Source: Rhodospirillales bacterium
Lineage (GTDB): Bacteria; Pseudomonadota; Alphaproteobacteria; Rhodospirillales; Casp-alpha2
Reading direction: 5' to 3'
Assembly (NCBI GenBank): GCA_017644185.1
Contig: JAEPMA010000002.1
Coordinates: 62,001-126,000, forward strand
Length of the DNA: 64,000 nt
The position numbers and the translations under genes were made by a program. Positions 57,558 through 63,954 of this stretch are shown here, one piece after another. Below the pieces are notes generated by a model, which was given only the letters and a program-made list of their open reading frames with translations, was not told the origin of the DNA and searched no databases. Each line of letters opens with the position of its first letter. Position 1 is the stretch's first letter.

Positions 57558-57577
57558 GCAAATGAAAATCATTGTCA
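57558..57577. promoter_or_regulatory. Fur-box-like site 1
   Basis: GCAAATGAAAATCATTGTC matches 15 of 19 positions of the classical Fur box, and its 7-1-7 form TGAAAAT-C-ATTGTCA (57563-57577) has only two mismatches. It lies about 86 bp upstream of the DUF4856 ATG, the first gene of an iron-uptake operon. Confidence 0.7.
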
Positions 57578-57594: not shown

Positions 57595-57609
57595 TGAGAA
57601 TGAGTATGA
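57595..57609. promoter_or_regulatory. Fur-box-like site 2
   Basis: TGAGAATGAGTATGA matches the 7-1-7 Fur pattern at 11 of 14 positions. It lies 17 bp after site 1, closer to the gene start, which would allow cooperative repression. Confidence 0.45.
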
Positions 57610-57662
57610 GTTTCAGTCGCAGATTTTGATAAATCCAACATCCCATGTGAGGAAACCGATCA

Positions 57663-59078
57663 ATGTTCCATTCTAAATTCATCAATGTGGGAGCGACTAC
57701 GTTCTCGATCGCCCTGCTCTCGACATCAGCACTGGCAAATGACAAGGTTTACACGGGCTTCCCGGTAACCGTTAAAGGCTACAACGGCGATAAGACCACT
57801 TCCGTTTCTTACAGCGGCCAGGTCGCCCGGCACACGCTGCACGACTCCCTGAAGGCGATCGCGGGTAAGGGGAATGACAAGCCGAACCCCAGCCTGAAGG
57901 CACAGATGACCTCCTATTTCGAGGGCAAGGACCCCGAAAGAGTCATCATCGCGCCCCAATCCAAGGGCAAGTTCGTGATCAAGCAGATCAAGGTCGGCGA
58001 GATCAGCAAATCGACCAATCTTGTCGGCAAGGCTTATGGCGGCACCATCACCGGCATGCCGAATGCCATGACCGGCGCCGAATTGATCAACTTCTGGATC
58101 GACAAGGCATCCATGGCCGACGGCGGACAGGACTCCTCAAACGGCTATGACTATCCGCAGTTAATCTCGAAATTCATCATGGGGGCGGTCTTCTACAATC
58201 AGGTTGTCGACGGATATCTCGACGAATATCTCGAAGCCGACAAGAAACCGAACGACAAGCCATACCGGGACGGTGCGCCCTATACGGGCAAGGAACACGC
58301 CTGGGACGAGGGCTTCGGGTACTTCGGTGCGCCGGCGCACGCACTGACGCTCAGCCCGGCCGAAGTATACGACATCGCCAAGCGTAAAGACGAGGCGATG
58401 ACCTGGGCGGACTACAATCAAGACGGCATGGTCGATTTGAAGACCGAAATGGTGTTCGGTCACGCCTACTACGCCGCCGGTTTCGACAAAGGGGGCAAAA
58501 CCGAATACCTGCACACCATCGTCAAGGCATTTATCGACGGACGGAAGCTGTTGACGAGCGCCAAGGGCGAGAAACTGACCGACACCCAACGCGCCGAACT
58601 CAAGGGCTATGCCAAGGTGATCCACGACAATTGGCAAGCGGTCCTGGCCGAAGCCACGTTCAAGTACGCCGGTTCCGTCTACAAGGACATGGTCAAACTG
58701 CAGACCATCATGGAAGCCAACGGCGAAACCGACAAAATGCTCAAGACCTACATTAAGCACTGGGGCGAGCTTAAGGGCTTCGCGTTGGCCCTGCAGACCG
58801 GCAAAAACAATCTGGGTGAGACCGCGACCAGACTGAACCGCATGATCGGCTTCGGCCCGCTGTTGCCGAACAGGAGCCAAGTCGTCGATGTCGATAGCGA
58901 CGGCAATTACATGCGTGACCAGGGCTCGTCCTGGGGCGAGTACATGCTGCATATGGCAAAGGTACAGCAGCTCATGATCGACCAGTTCGGCGTCAAGGCC
59001 CGTGCCAATGACGTCACCGGCGACATGAAGGGTCTTGCCGACACTCTCGGTGGCAAGTCGACCGCCGAAAACGATTGA
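57663..59078 (+). CDS. Secreted DUF4856 family protein, iron operon
   Basis: A 471-residue protein with a signal peptide (1-25, ending SALA). The mature part resembles the DUF4856 family: TGAELINFWIDKASMADG, the EHAWDEGFGYFGAP motif (about 210-223, acidic and His residues) and HYYAAGF-like MVFGHAYYAAGFDKGG. It is thought to be periplasmic and its function is unknown. Its promoter has Fur-box-like sites and its downstream neighbours are iron ABC transporter parts, so a role in iron capture is inferred. GTGAGGA lies about 10 bp before the ATG. Confidence 0.82.
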   Translation: MFHSKFINVGATTFSIALLSTSALANDKVYTGFPVTVKGYNGDKTTSVSYSGQVARHTLHDSLKAIAGKGNDKPNPSLKAQMTSYFEGKDPERVIIAPQSKGKFVIKQIKVGEISKSTNLVGKAYGGTITGMPNAMTGAELINFWIDKASMADGGQDSSNGYDYPQLISKFIMGAVFYNQVVDGYLDEYLEADKKPNDKPYRDGAPYTGKEHAWDEGFGYFGAPAHALTLSPAEVYDIAKRKDEAMTWADYNQDGMVDLKTEMVFGHAYYAAGFDKGGKTEYLHTIVKAFIDGRKLLTSAKGEKLTDTQRAELKGYAKVIHDNWQAVLAEATFKYAGSVYKDMVKLQTIMEANGETDKMLKTYIKHWGELKGFALALQTGKNNLGETATRLNRMIGFGPLLPNRSQVVDVDSDGNYMRDQGSSWGEYMLHMAKVQQLMIDQFGVKARANDVTGDMKGLADTLGGKSTAEND

Positions 59079-59148: not shown

Positions 59149-61164
59149 ATGGATGTCTTTCTAGGCGAAGTTTATGAACGTCTGATTGGACCGCTTTTCG
59201 ATCCGGAAAAGCGCGTCTTCGTGGGATATCTTTTCAGCGCCTTCCTGATCGCACTCACGATCCAGGTCATCGCCAGCCGGGAAAAGCTGGTCCCGGCCCT
59301 CAAGGCGATCCTCAGCGGCGGCATATGGTGGTCGCGCTCGGCACGTACCGATTATCTCGTCGCCGTCCTCAACCAGTTCTTCATGATGGGCATTGCGCCC
59401 AGATTGCTCGGCAAGCTGACGGTCGCAACCGCGCTGTTCGGCTGGCTTCATGTTGCATTCGACGGCCGCCCGATGATTTTGCCCGGCGCGCCCGGGTGGT
59501 CCATCGCCGGGGCGTTCACACTGGTTCTTTTCCTGTTGGATGACGCGAGCAAATACATCGTTCACCGCCTGCTTCACCGTTGGCCGGTATTGTGGGCTTT
59601 TCACAAAGTCCATCACACCGCCGAAACCCTGACACCGTTCACGGTATTTCGCACTCATCCCGTGGAAGGCATCATCTTCGCGCTGCGTTCGGCTCTCGTT
59701 CAGGCGGCGGCACTCGCGACCTTCTTTTTCTTCTTCGGTGAGCGCGTCGAACTGATGAGCGTCTTCGGCGCCAACATTATCATTTTCGTTTTTAACGTGG
59801 CCGGCGCCAACCTGCGTCATTCACACGTCTGGATTTCTTACGGTCACCTGATCGAACACATTCTGATTTCACCTGCCCAGCACCAGATTCACCACTCCGC
59901 CGCGACGGAGCATCACGACCGCAACTTCGGCGTCGTGTTGGCGGTCTGGGACTGGATGGGCGGCAGCCTGCATCTTGCCGGGCGCCGCCAATCGATCCGT
60001 TTCGGTGTGCTTCAAGAAATGCACGCCGATCAACACAGCCTGAACGCCGTCTACACCCGGCCACTTATTGAAGCGGCCGGATCCGTGCGGCGTCTTATCC
60101 ACTGGAGGCCACATCAAATGTTCGTTCCCGCCAAAGCCAAAACCGCAGGTCTCGCCGCCGCCATCGGCGGCGCGTTGCTGGTCCTCGTGCTCGGCATCAC
60201 CAATGCCGGTGCCGCCGAAAAAGTGCTGAACGTCTATTCACACCGCCAGCCGTTCCTGATCGAGCCGTTTATCGAGGCCTACACCAAACAAACCGGGACC
60301 AAGGTCAACATCGTTTACGCTTCCAAGGGCCTGGCACAGCGCCTGATGGCCGAGGGCGAAAGCAGCCCGGCCGACGTCATTCTGACCGTCGACATCGCGC
60401 GGCTGCACGTCTATGCCGACAAGAACCTCTTGCAGCCTGTTCACTCGGACATTCTGAAAAAGAACATCCCGCCACACATGCGGGCACCCGACGACACCTG
60501 GTTCGCACTTTCCAAGCGCGCGCGTGTCATCGCCGTATCGCGCGAAGTCAAAGACGTGCAAGCGATCGAAAGTTATGAAGAACTCGCCGACCCGAAATGG
60601 AAGGGCCGCATCTGCGTGCGACCGGGCAGCCATGTCTATAACCGCGCACTGGTCGCCTCGATGATCAACGCGCATGGCATGGAAGAAACCGAGAAATGGG
60701 CGCAGGGCCTTGTCGCCAATCTGGCCCGCCGCCCGCAGGCCAACGACCGTGCACAGGTGAAGGCGGTCTTCGAAGGTGTCTGCGACATCGCCATCATTAA
60801 CAACTATTATTACGGAAAGCTGCTCACCTCGGACAACCCGATGCAACAGCAGTGGGGGCAGTCCGTTAAGTTGATCTTCCCCAATCAGGACGGACGTGGC
60901 ACGCACGTGAACATCTCCGGCGGCGGCGTGCCGAAATACGCACCGCACCGGGATGAGGCAGTAAAGTTCCTGGAATTCTTGACGTCGAAGACGGCGCAGG
61001 ACTTATATGGCGAGATCAATTTCGAGTACCCGGTCAATCCGGCAGTGGAAGAAACCGAAACTCTGAAATCCTGGGGCGAGTTTAAAGAGGACGACATGCC
61101 GATTTCACGCATTGCAGAGTTGGCACCCGAAGCCCAACGGGTTATCGACCGCGTTGGATGGTAA
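59149..61164 (+). CDS. Fusion: sterol desaturase/fatty acid hydroxylase domain + FbpA-like ferric iron-binding protein
   Basis: A 671-residue single frame. Residues 1-320 form a membrane di-metal hydroxylase of the fatty acid hydroxylase superfamily: about six helices and the His clusters H139-x3-H143, H152-x2-H155-H156 and H245-x2-H248-H249. Residues 324-358 look exactly like a signal peptide (MFVPAKAKTAGLAAAIGG... ending AGA). Residues 359-671 are an FbpA/class-I ferric-binding protein with the metal tyrosines in INNYYYGKL (553-555). An internal ATG at 60118 has GGAGG 9 bp upstream, so the binding protein may also be made alone. It follows the DUF4856 gene by 70 bp and overlaps fbpB by seven bases. 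Confidence 0.88.
   Translation: MDVFLGEVYERLIGPLFDPEKRVFVGYLFSAFLIALTIQVIASREKLVPALKAILSGGIWWSRSARTDYLVAVLNQFFMMGIAPRLLGKLTVATALFGWLHVAFDGRPMILPGAPGWSIAGAFTLVLFLLDDASKYIVHRLLHRWPVLWAFHKVHHTAETLTPFTVFRTHPVEGIIFALRSALVQAAALATFFFFFGERVELMSVFGANIIIFVFNVAGANLRHSHVWISYGHLIEHILISPAQHQIHHSAATEHHDRNFGVVLAVWDWMGGSLHLAGRRQSIRFGVLQEMHADQHSLNAVYTRPLIEAAGSVRRLIHWRPHQMFVPAKAKTAGLAAAIGGALLVLVLGITNAGAAEKVLNVYSHRQPFLIEPFIEAYTKQTGTKVNIVYASKGLAQRLMAEGESSPADVILTVDIARLHVYADKNLLQPVHSDILKKNIPPHMRAPDDTWFALSKRARVIAVSREVKDVQAIESYEELADPKWKGRICVRPGSHVYNRALVASMINAHGMEETEKWAQGLVANLARRPQANDRAQVKAVFEGVCDIAIINNYYYGKLLTSDNPMQQQWGQSVKLIFPNQDGRGTHVNISGGGVPKYAPHRDEAVKFLEFLTSKTAQDLYGEINFEYPVNPAVEETETLKSWGEFKEDDMPISRIAELAPEAQRVIDRVGW
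60103..60120 (+). promoter_or_regulatory. Internal ribosome-binding site and start for the FbpA-like part
   Basis: TGGAGG (60103-60108), a 9-base spacer and ATG (60118-60120), in frame with the upstream hydroxylase part. The encoded product begins with a complete signal peptide, so initiation here would give a free periplasmic binding protein of about 348 residues. Confidence 0.6.
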
Positions 61165-62807
61165 GCCACGCCGGCAGCGCCGGCACGGGTAAGTTCCAGC
61201 TACGGATGTCGCCCTGGGCCATCGCGTCTCTGACGCTGGCCCTGGTCTTCCTCCTGCCGATCCTTTCCGTATTCATCGCCGCCAGCGGCGACACCGGCGA
61301 TTTGTGGCCGCATCTGTTCCAGACGGTCCTGCCCCGCTATGTTGCCAACACCCTGATCCTGATGGCCGGCGTTGCCGGCATCAGCCTGCTGTTTGGGGTG
61401 ACGACGGCCTGGCTTGTAACCCGCTATGCGTTTCCGGGACGACGCGTGCTGGAATGGATGTTGCTGTTGCCCGCAGCTGTACCGACCTATCTGATCGCTT
61501 ACACTTACACCGACTTTCTTGAATACGCGGGGCCGGTGCAGGTGCTGTTGCGCGACATCTTCGGCTGGCAAAGCGCCCGCGAATACTGGTTCCCGGAGAT
61601 CCGTTCGATGGGCGGCGCCACGCTGGTGCTGGGCGCGGTGCTATACCCTTACGTCTATATGATGGCGCGCGCCGCATTCATGCTGACACCGGCGTCATTG
61701 TACGAGGTCGGTATGTTGGCCAAGCGCAGTATGTTTCTGACGGTTGGTCTGCCCCTGGCACGGCCCGCGATTGTCGCCGGACTGGCACTGGTGATGATGG
61801 AGACGATTTCGGAGTTCGGCGTCGTCGAATACTTCGCCATCGAGACGATCACACTCGGCATCTTCAACGTCTGGCTCGGCATGAACAGTCTGCCTGCCGC
61901 CGCCAAGATCGCGTCGGTATGCTTCCTGTTCATCATCGCGCTGCTCGCCATTGAAATTTTAGCCCGCTCGCGTCGGCGCTTCATCAACACCAGCCGAAAA
62001 TCGGCACAGCTGCCGCCGCAACAACTCAACGGCGGCAAGGCTTTGGCCTGTCTGGCGGCATGCCTGACACCGATTATCATCGGCTTTGTCGTGCCGGTCG
62101 GCGTGTTGCTGAGCTTCGTACTCAAAGGTTACTCCCTCGAGTTCAACAACGCGCAGCTCTCAGCCGCATGGCATTCGATCTCTCTCGCTTCCGTCGTCGC
62201 CGTGCTGGTTGTTTCTTCCGCCGCATTCATGGGTCTCGTCGCCCATTACCAAGGCGGCACCTGGCTGCGGCGCGCCACCACCGTCGCATCGATGGGTTAT
62301 GCTTTTCCCGGCACGATCCTCGCGATCGGCGTGATCACCGCTGCCGGCACCATCGACAACGGCATCGGCCGAATCGTCGAAGGTATGTTCGGGATCACCT
62401 ATCATGGCTGGCTCACCAGCGGCGTTGGCCTCGTTGCCGTTGCCTGCGCGATCCGCTTTCAGGCCATCGGATACGGCGCGGTCACGACTGGGCTCGGTCG
62501 TCTGCCGCCCAACATGATGAACGCGAGCCGGATCCTTGGCCGGACATTCGCCGGCAGCGTGCGCGAGACGATCCTGCCCCTTATGCGTCTGTCGTTGGTC
62601 ACTGGTGGGCTTCTCGTCTTCGTCGACGTGATGAAAGAACTGCCGATGACCTTGTTGCTTCGCCCGTTCAACTATGAAACTTTGGCGACCTACGTATACC
62701 AATACGCCAAGGATGAGTTGTTGGAGCAAGCGGCGATGCCGGCCCTTTTCATCGTCGTCGTCGGTATCGTGCCCGTGGTTCTGATGAATGCGACCTTGCG
62801 CAAATGA
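61158..62807 (+). CDS. Ferric iron ABC transporter permease, FbpB-type
   Basis: A 549-residue permease with two homologous halves and about twelve helices, as in FbpB/SfuB. The two permease loops are visible (ARPAIVAGLALVMMETISEFGVVEYFAIETIT in the first half; MNASRILGRTFAGSVRETILPLMRLSLVTGGLLVFVDVMKELPMTLLLRPFN in the second). The ATG overlaps the stop of the fusion gene, so the two are co-translated. It works with the FbpA-like part and the ATPase downstream. Confidence 0.92.
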   Translation: MVSHAGSAGTGKFQLRMSPWAIASLTLALVFLLPILSVFIAASGDTGDLWPHLFQTVLPRYVANTLILMAGVAGISLLFGVTTAWLVTRYAFPGRRVLEWMLLLPAAVPTYLIAYTYTDFLEYAGPVQVLLRDIFGWQSAREYWFPEIRSMGGATLVLGAVLYPYVYMMARAAFMLTPASLYEVGMLAKRSMFLTVGLPLARPAIVAGLALVMMETISEFGVVEYFAIETITLGIFNVWLGMNSLPAAAKIASVCFLFIIALLAIEILARSRRRFINTSRKSAQLPPQQLNGGKALACLAACLTPIIIGFVVPVGVLLSFVLKGYSLEFNNAQLSAAWHSISLASVVAVLVVSSAAFMGLVAHYQGGTWLRRATTVASMGYAFPGTILAIGVITAAGTIDNGIGRIVEGMFGITYHGWLTSGVGLVAVACAIRFQAIGYGAVTTGLGRLPPNMMNASRILGRTFAGSVRETILPLMRLSLVTGGLLVFVDVMKELPMTLLLRPFNYETLATYVYQYAKDELLEQAAMPALFIVVVGIVPVVLMNATLRK

Positions 62808-62847: not shown

Positions 62848-63954
62848 ATGAGAGGTGACAGCGCTACTGGCCTTAGTCTCAGCGGAATCTCGCACGCCTT
62901 TGGGAAAAATCGCGTACTCGACAATGTCAGCGTCGATGTCGCGCCCGGCGAGCTTGTTTGTCTTTTGGGGCCGAGTGGCTGCGGCAAAACGACGCTTCTT
63001 CGGATCGCTGCCGGACTGGAACCGCTGCAGACCGGCCGTGTCGCCATCGATGGCGTTGCTATCGCAGAAGGCGGCAAGGCGGGGGAATTGCCGCCGGAAC
63101 GTCGCGGCATCGGCTTGATGTTTCAGGACTACGCCTTGTTTCCGCACCGCAACGTCCGCGACAACATCGCTTTCGGCATCGACAAGAAAAAAGGCGGACG
63201 GCGCGCCGACTGGATCGACGACGCGCTTGCCCAGATGGGTCTGACGAATCATGCCGACGCGTATCCGCACACGCTTTCGGGTGGACAGCAACAACGCGTC
63301 GCATTGATCCGCGCGTTGGCGCCGGGACCGAATATTCTGCTTTTGGACGAACCGTTCTCCGGCTTGGATGTCGGACGACGCGCTCAGATCCGTGCCGACA
63401 CCCTGGATTTCGTAAAGAAGACGGGGGTCGCAGCACTGATGGTGACGCACGATCCGGAAGAGGCGATGTTCATGGCCGATCGCATCTTCGTGATGAACGA
63501 CGGCCGTGTGGTTCAGTCCGGCTCGCCGGTGGACCTCTATTTCCAACCCGCAAATGCTTTTGTCGCCGAGTTGTTCGGACCGGTGAACCGCTTCGTGGGC
63601 ACCGTCCACGACGGTTCAGTGGAAACACCATTGGGGAAGTTCAACGCCGGCACACTCGCCGAAGGATCCGCGGCCGAAGTCATGATCCGGCCCGAGGCTT
63701 TTCGACTTTCGACCGAAGACAGCGAACCAAAACCAATGCCCGGTGATCCGGACGACCTGGTCGTTGTCTCCCAGCCCTTAGAAGTGCTGACCGCACGCCC
63801 ACTCGGCCGGTCGTCATATCTGTTGCTTTCAATCGGCAACGGCTGTTCGGTCGAAACACGCATTCCGGGGGCATTTCTGCCAGGGGCCGGATCCATGGTA
63901 AGAGCTGGTATCAATCCCCGCCTCGCCCACGTGTTCGCCGCCGCAGCCCGGTAA
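62848..63954 (+). CDS. Ferric iron ABC transporter ATPase, FbpC-type
   Basis: A 368-residue ATP-binding subunit. Walker A GPSGCGKTT is at residues 41-49, the Q-loop in MFQDYALFPHRNV, the signature LSGGQQQRVALIRAL and Walker B ILLLDEPFSGLD. The C-terminal part is a TOBE-like regulatory domain (VMIRPEAFRL...). GAGG precedes the ATG. It is the last gene of the iron operon visible in the window. Confidence 0.92.
   Translation: MRGDSATGLSLSGISHAFGKNRVLDNVSVDVAPGELVCLLGPSGCGKTTLLRIAAGLEPLQTGRVAIDGVAIAEGGKAGELPPERRGIGLMFQDYALFPHRNVRDNIAFGIDKKKGGRRADWIDDALAQMGLTNHADAYPHTLSGGQQQRVALIRALAPGPNILLLDEPFSGLDVGRRAQIRADTLDFVKKTGVAALMVTHDPEEAMFMADRIFVMNDGRVVQSGSPVDLYFQPANAFVAELFGPVNRFVGTVHDGSVETPLGKFNAGTLAEGSAAEVMIRPEAFRLSTEDSEPKPMPGDPDDLVVVSQPLEVLTARPLGRSSYLLLSIGNGCSVETRIPGAFLPGAGSMVRAGINPRLAHVFAAAAR

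Follow-up and report, generated by a model that had tools for sequence, protein, structure and literature searches.

A hydroxylase::ferric-binding-protein gene fusion with a conserved internal start in a putative Fur-controlled iron-uptake operon

Why should a membrane hydroxylase and a periplasmic iron-binding protein share one open reading frame, and does such a frame yield one product or two? The question is raised by a fused gene in a 64,000-nucleotide (nt) stretch of a Rhodospirillales bacterium genome (assembly GCA_017644185.1, contig JAEPMA010000002.1, positions 62,001 to 126,000), here called the window, whose own numbering is used throughout. Sequence comparison establishes the structure and conservation of this gene, a conserved internal start, a retained predicted signal peptide and a Fur-like site upstream, and makes two products likely. 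Taken together, we consider it somewhat probable that the locus is a Fur-controlled ferric uptake operon in which a hydroxylase::FbpA gene gives two products and the oxygenase aids iron acquisition. To our reading of the comparisons, what is new here is that a ferric uptake operon of the ATP-binding cassette (ABC) type contains a hydroxylase fused to the binding protein, with an internal start that is conserved.

One frame for a hydroxylase and a ferric-binding protein

The fused gene (59149..61164, + strand) is a single open frame from an ATG at 59149 to a TAA at 61162-61164 and encodes 671 amino acids. Its hydroxylase domain (residues 1-318, 59149..60102, + strand) matches the fatty acid hydroxylase superfamily PF04116 over residues 125-272 at 79.4 bits against a curated cut-off of 31. 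Nine histidines, those of the boxes H139xxxH143, H152xxHH156 and H245xxHH249 together with H170, are invariant in all 54 rows of one alignment, which bears out the three His clusters described in a sequence-only reading of this DNA; the domain conforms to the HX3H, HX2HH, HX2HH pattern that we take to be the hallmark of PF04116. By profile and His boxes it is a putative di-metal membrane hydroxylase. The nearest NCBIfam model is OlsE, an ornithine lipid hydroxylase, with which the domain shares the profile match and the His-box pattern; that identity was rejected at 40.2 bits, far under the equivalog cut-off of 475, and the window's enzyme differs further in being fused to, or in relatives paired with, iron genes. 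Identity with the Fe(II)/2-oxoglutarate dioxygenases of the CciO/PiuC type was rejected as well, because PF04116 and substrate-binding protein (SBP) families alone matched at E 0.001.

The C-terminal part of the chain is a mature FbpA/FutA-type domain (residues 356-671, 60214..61161, + strand). Four SBP family profiles match the fused protein between residues 369 and 646, and the last 316 residues match FutA1/FbpA chains at E about 1e-89, in agreement with the earlier proposal that one frame joins a hydroxylase to an FbpA-like protein. The proposed three-tyrosine metal site also holds: all 16 fused sequences compared have Y497, Y553 and Y554, and in an alignment with chain 1q35, an FbpA of Mannheimia/Pasteurella, these fall, as counted by hand, on Y142, Y198 and Y199, presumably the iron ligands of that chain. 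By fold and sequence, the domain belongs with the FbpA/FutA ferric-binding proteins and is predicted to bind Fe(III). An AlphaFold model of the fused protein, built from the 54-row alignment, has a mean pLDDT of 88.1, with both domains confidently folded and a linker that consists of a low-confidence stretch (residues 319-332) and a helix (330-351).

Related loci came from public genomes, where a scan confirmed 201 and the best 80 were kept, and from searches of further relatives. In each of the 44 usable loci the hydroxylase and the binding protein follow one another on the same strand; L027 (a frameshifted contig, kept in another tree) and L122 (at a contig edge) were omitted, and L003, L119, L138, L139 and L145 were dropped as the same loci as L014, L018, L150, L151 and L155, as were L141, L142, L144 and L146 (duplicates of L152, L153, L154 and L156). 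The two parts form one frame in 19 of the 44, the window's included, so the fused frame is not a matter of chance, and relatives do not all carry two genes. The other 25 loci nevertheless have separate genes (11 pairs overlapping by 11-94 nt, 14 without overlap), and the fusion is thus dispensable for function.

In a tree built from both proteins with the linker excluded, the window falls in a clade of 12 rows (support 100/99), every one of them fused. A second alphaproteobacterial part of the tree is mixed, fused and separate states alternating among 13 rows of which 6 are fused, and a lone fused gammaproteobacterium (L060) stands amid 18 separate ones. State must change six times on this tree, and branches with good support demand five of those changes; the fusion was hence gained or lost repeatedly. 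Two records titled Mesoflavibacter (L017) and Flavobacteriales (L022) group inside the alphaproteobacterial clade, and their labels look wrong. In four genomes of the same genus (G001, G002, G005 and G007), FbpA is instead an ordinary protein with a gene of its own, at 48-51% identity; when the window's genome was searched with the FbpA part, nothing else in it matched at E 0.001.

The internal start, the signal peptide and the number of products

An in-frame ATG lies at the junction (M324, 60118..60120, + strand), preceded, as the sequence-only reading had seen, by the Shine-Dalgarno (SD) sequence GGAGG (60104..60108, + strand) at a spacing of 9 nt. The 53 long open reading frames kept for the window contain 462 internal ATGs in frame. 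Of these, 7, among them the one at 60118, are preceded by an SD duplex at least as strong as -9.3 kcal/mol. Among the operon's five starts the internal SD is the strongest and that of the hydroxylase (-1.7) the weakest. Its position is conserved as well: the rest of the linker varies widely, but each of the 11 tested members of the all-fused clade has an ATG 35, 36 or 39 codons upstream of the mature part.

To ask whether the SD is stronger than the coding sequence alone would give, we compared its strength with that in synonymous shuffles and set the result beside control windows; L022, whose sequence contains N letters, was left out of these tests, and L095, a near-copy of L094, was dropped after the single-locus version. 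The 11 clade sequences exceeded expectation (χ2 53.3, df 22), with 25 control windows reaching at most 36.0, and the six fusions outside the clade gave a χ2 of 23.8 against at most 20.8 in control windows. An earlier version with 14 fusions had given a Fisher p of 9e-4, the minimum among 12 controls being 0.17. Singly, the window's own SD has a p of 0.036.

The internal ATG opens a predicted signal peptide or membrane segment (residues 324-355, 60118..60213, + strand), which contains the modelled helix and ends in a signal-peptidase-like site between AGA and A. All 14 fusions compared have a positive n-region that lacks acidic residues, and a hydrophobic core with an AxA-like site occurs in 17 of 17, with values similar to those of the 25 separate binding proteins; hence the long product may be cut. 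Linker codons compared between the window and L014 have dN/dS values of 0.28 and 0.36.

These observations fit a scheme in which two genes that adjoin or overlap in relatives, one for the hydroxylase and one for FbpA, merged into one frame. Initiation at the weak hydroxylase start would give the 671-residue protein, its hydroxylase part in the inner membrane and its FbpA part exported by the internal signal sequence, and initiation at the strong internal start would give free periplasmic FbpA, so that FbpA would outnumber the hydroxylase. Signal peptidase probably cuts the long form at the retained site, at least in part, and the two proteins released in this way would be those that separate genes make. 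Of the two products first proposed, a membrane-anchored fusion and a free periplasmic protein, the internal start is upheld by ATG position and SD strength; the anchoring of the long form fares less well, given the signal-peptidase-like site in every fusion examined. Cleavage of the long chain is plausible, and a lasting tether appears the less supported alternative.

Several observations weigh against this scheme. In the single-locus SD test, p is 0.05 or less for just 5 of the 15 fusions, two of which are the near-copies L094 and L095, and it is 0.42 for the closest relative, L014. The strongest SD in L094 and L118 goes with another start codon (at -45 and -42, respectively) rather than with the -35 codon, for which L094 and L096 have a weak SD (-3.7). 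A search for a usable internal start found none in L018 and L155; L021 and L120 have a TTG only, and neither L022 nor the partial fusion L122 retains the start codon. Shuffled junctions yield a signal-peptidase-like site in 10.3 of 14 cases, so chance matches come easily, and a pTM of 0.54 leaves the mutual placement of the two domains in the AlphaFold model undefined. Where fusions outside the clade lack the internal start, the long product alone must suffice, and in L018, L155, L021, L120, L022 and L122 internal initiation would be unneeded or vestigial. Within the window's clade, then, initiation at the internal site is likely, but fusion does not depend on it.

The alternatives overlap with this scheme and with one another, and our probabilities for them need not sum to one. 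A distinct but minority possibility is that the gene makes a single polyprotein, which signal peptidase I would divide into a tailed hydroxylase and free FbpA, the internal ATG being a relic. The conserved features of the signal peptide and the two fusions without a usable start agree with it. The fbcH gene of Bradyrhizobium, which encodes cytochromes b and c1 as a polyprotein, is a precedent, and resembles the window's gene in placing a membrane protein and an exported one in one chain with an internal signal peptide. The fusion studied here differs from fbcH by adding a conserved internal start, and its cleavage is a prediction. Retention of the ATG in all tested clade sequences despite the diverged linker, with SD strength above expectation, speaks against a relic.

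Neutral fusion, the chance joining of overlapping genes in frame without selective consequence, is conceivable though on balance unlikely; it is compatible with two products and would make the same ones. The alternation of states in the mixed part of the tree and the overlap in 11 of the 25 separate pairs are what it would lead one to expect. Against it, all 12 clade rows stay fused across a fast-changing linker, but through shared ancestry these rows do not count as 12 independent cases.

Quite unlikely, in our estimate, is a permanent tether, in which the internal signal sequence would stay uncut as an extra membrane helix and keep FbpA beside the permease. Substrate-binding proteins fused to transporters offer a parallel, the AlphaFold model has a helix followed by a folded FbpA domain, and the 12-residue core is slightly more hydrophobic in fusions than in separate proteins (2.48 vs 2.32, p 0.05). 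Yet residues resembling a cleavage site are kept, and neither 18-residue hydrophobicity (p 0.21) nor the uncharged run (p 0.74) distinguishes fusions from separate genes. Finally, we practically dismiss a sequencing or assembly error that masks a stop or frameshift near 60100, for which no support was found (L027 alone looks frameshifted, in several genes) and which is refuted by the same open frame in 18 other loci, including one in a one-contig genome (G691, L150).

Operon, Fur-like site and genomic neighbourhood

The fused gene is the second of four in the order DUF4856, hydroxylase::FbpA, permease and ATPase, an operon that would take up ferric iron under Fur control. Downstream lie a two-domain ABC transporter permease (61158..62807, + strand; PF00528 in two stretches), which overlaps the fused gene by 7 nt, and an ABC transporter ATPase (62848..63954, + strand; PF00005, TOBE_2), as expected of an FbpABC operon. 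Their best NCBIfam names are 2-aminoethylphosphonate types, all below cut-off among the matches listed (for the ATPase, the best 25 of 186). The window departs from FbpABC/FutABC-type transporters in that its binding protein makes up the C-terminal half of a chain that begins with a membrane hydroxylase, and in that its operon starts with DUF4856.

A Fur-box-like site (57558..57576, no strand assigned) lies 105 nt upstream of the first gene and agrees at 15 of 19 positions with what we take to be the consensus. It is the top score of all + strand 19-mers in the window, and Fur binding to it is a prediction. A second, weaker Fur-like site (57596-57614, 13 of 19) lies beside it. In a survey restricted to distinct upstream stretches with at least 150 nt before DUF4856, and with gene starts only estimated in L027 and L042, a Fur-like site reached a shuffle p ≤ 0.05 in 24 of 54 relatives; the other 30 had no such box above shuffles, which adds a difficulty for the proposed Fur control. 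The window's genome encodes three FUR-family genes and five TonB plug domains, and a search of it for the FeoB C-terminal domain found none.

The operon's first gene (57663..59078, + strand) encodes a 471-residue DUF4856 protein with an apparent N-terminal signal peptide (PF16148, 39.2 bits against a cut-off of 22.3). Its AlphaFold model (pLDDT 91.5) is mainly helical, and the 50 fold matches listed for it include generic helical proteins; imelysin is absent from its Pfam matches up to E 1. The protein contains an EF-hand-like acidic loop, DYNQDGMVDLKTE (58410-58448), in which D250, D254, L259 and E262 are invariant in 50 sequences and which is a possible metal site. A literature search with most subscription papers outside its coverage found no paper on DUF4856, and no description of the hydroxylase-binding-protein pair or fusion among the matches listed.

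Among 385 genomes of the class, 10, the window's included, contain DUF4856 at E 1e-30. It is followed by this hydroxylase in all 10 and, within the 1.5 kb read, by the binding protein in 8 (4 fused, 4 separate). DUF4856 also stands directly upstream in 55 of the 80 hydroxylase loci, the other 25 including 4 with less than 800 nt of upstream sequence. DUF4856 and the hydroxylase together seem to form the system's core. In L029, L037, L044, L053, L063 and L071 the two stand as a two-gene unit, and the sequence fetched around them has no match to FbpA; in L030 and L032-L035 (records titled Rhodobacteraceae) a hydroxylase-DUF4856 pair is divergent from a binding-protein gene.

More distant hydroxylases (L075, L077-L079 and L081) lie in a conserved type of cluster, imelysin-DHOR-imelysin-hydroxylase-MauG/MbnH-like, some examples of which come from mussel gill symbionts; in L080, a multicopper oxidase gene and FbpA/permease genes follow the hydroxylase instead. 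L073 and L074 read DUF4856, imelysin, TonB-dependent receptor and hydroxylase in one direction, perhaps a fuller version of the module, and the best model for the L073 receptor is of the siderophore-receptor type, below its cut-off. An imelysin-DHOR-imelysin cluster is present in the window's genome too, at a contig end (G000:C7:215-3868). These imelysin, di-haem and TonB neighbourhoods point to iron acquisition whether or not the hydroxylase is fused, and together with the Fur-like box, DUF4856 and the fbpABC-type operon they lend support to the hydroxylase-iron link of the sequence-only reading. The hydroxylase probably belongs to iron acquisition.

An oxygenase beside ferric uptake

As is general for the PF04116 family, the window's hydroxylase would have its metal site on the cytoplasmic side of the inner membrane. 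Under iron shortage, the di-metal oxygenase of the window might act on a lipid or a lipophilic iron ligand, the substrate being a guess. The lipid or siderophore-like iron ligand that the sequence-only reading proposed is likewise speculative. A conceptual parallel is the CciT-CciO pair of Caulobacter (PiuA-PiuC type), in which a Fur-regulated iron importer is reported to require its oxygenase strictly (PMC12004947). Both systems would combine a transporter and an oxygenase under Fur; the enzyme family differs, the window having a predicted membrane di-metal hydroxylase and a periplasmic binding protein. Imelysin/EfeO-type proteins are described as periplasmic and iron-associated (PMC3143127). 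Relatives of the hydroxylase sit within imelysin-DHOR clusters, whereas the window's operon consists of DUF4856 and FbpABC-type genes without imelysin.

A broader proposal, tentative and rather unlikely as it stands, is that these loci represent an undescribed, widespread iron module in which the oxygenase acts directly on the iron ligand or on the transfer of iron beside the binding protein, the fusion and its internal start providing a fixed pairing together with a free surplus. The gene is in any case a natural instance in which one reading frame encodes both an enzyme of the membrane and a binding protein of the periplasm, and the loci indicate an oxygenase as a conserved partner of ferric uptake in mostly marine, iron-poor settings. 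To invest iron and oxygen in a hydroxylase whose operon carries a Fur-like box would be a paradox unless the enzyme repays the iron, a proposition that is directly testable.
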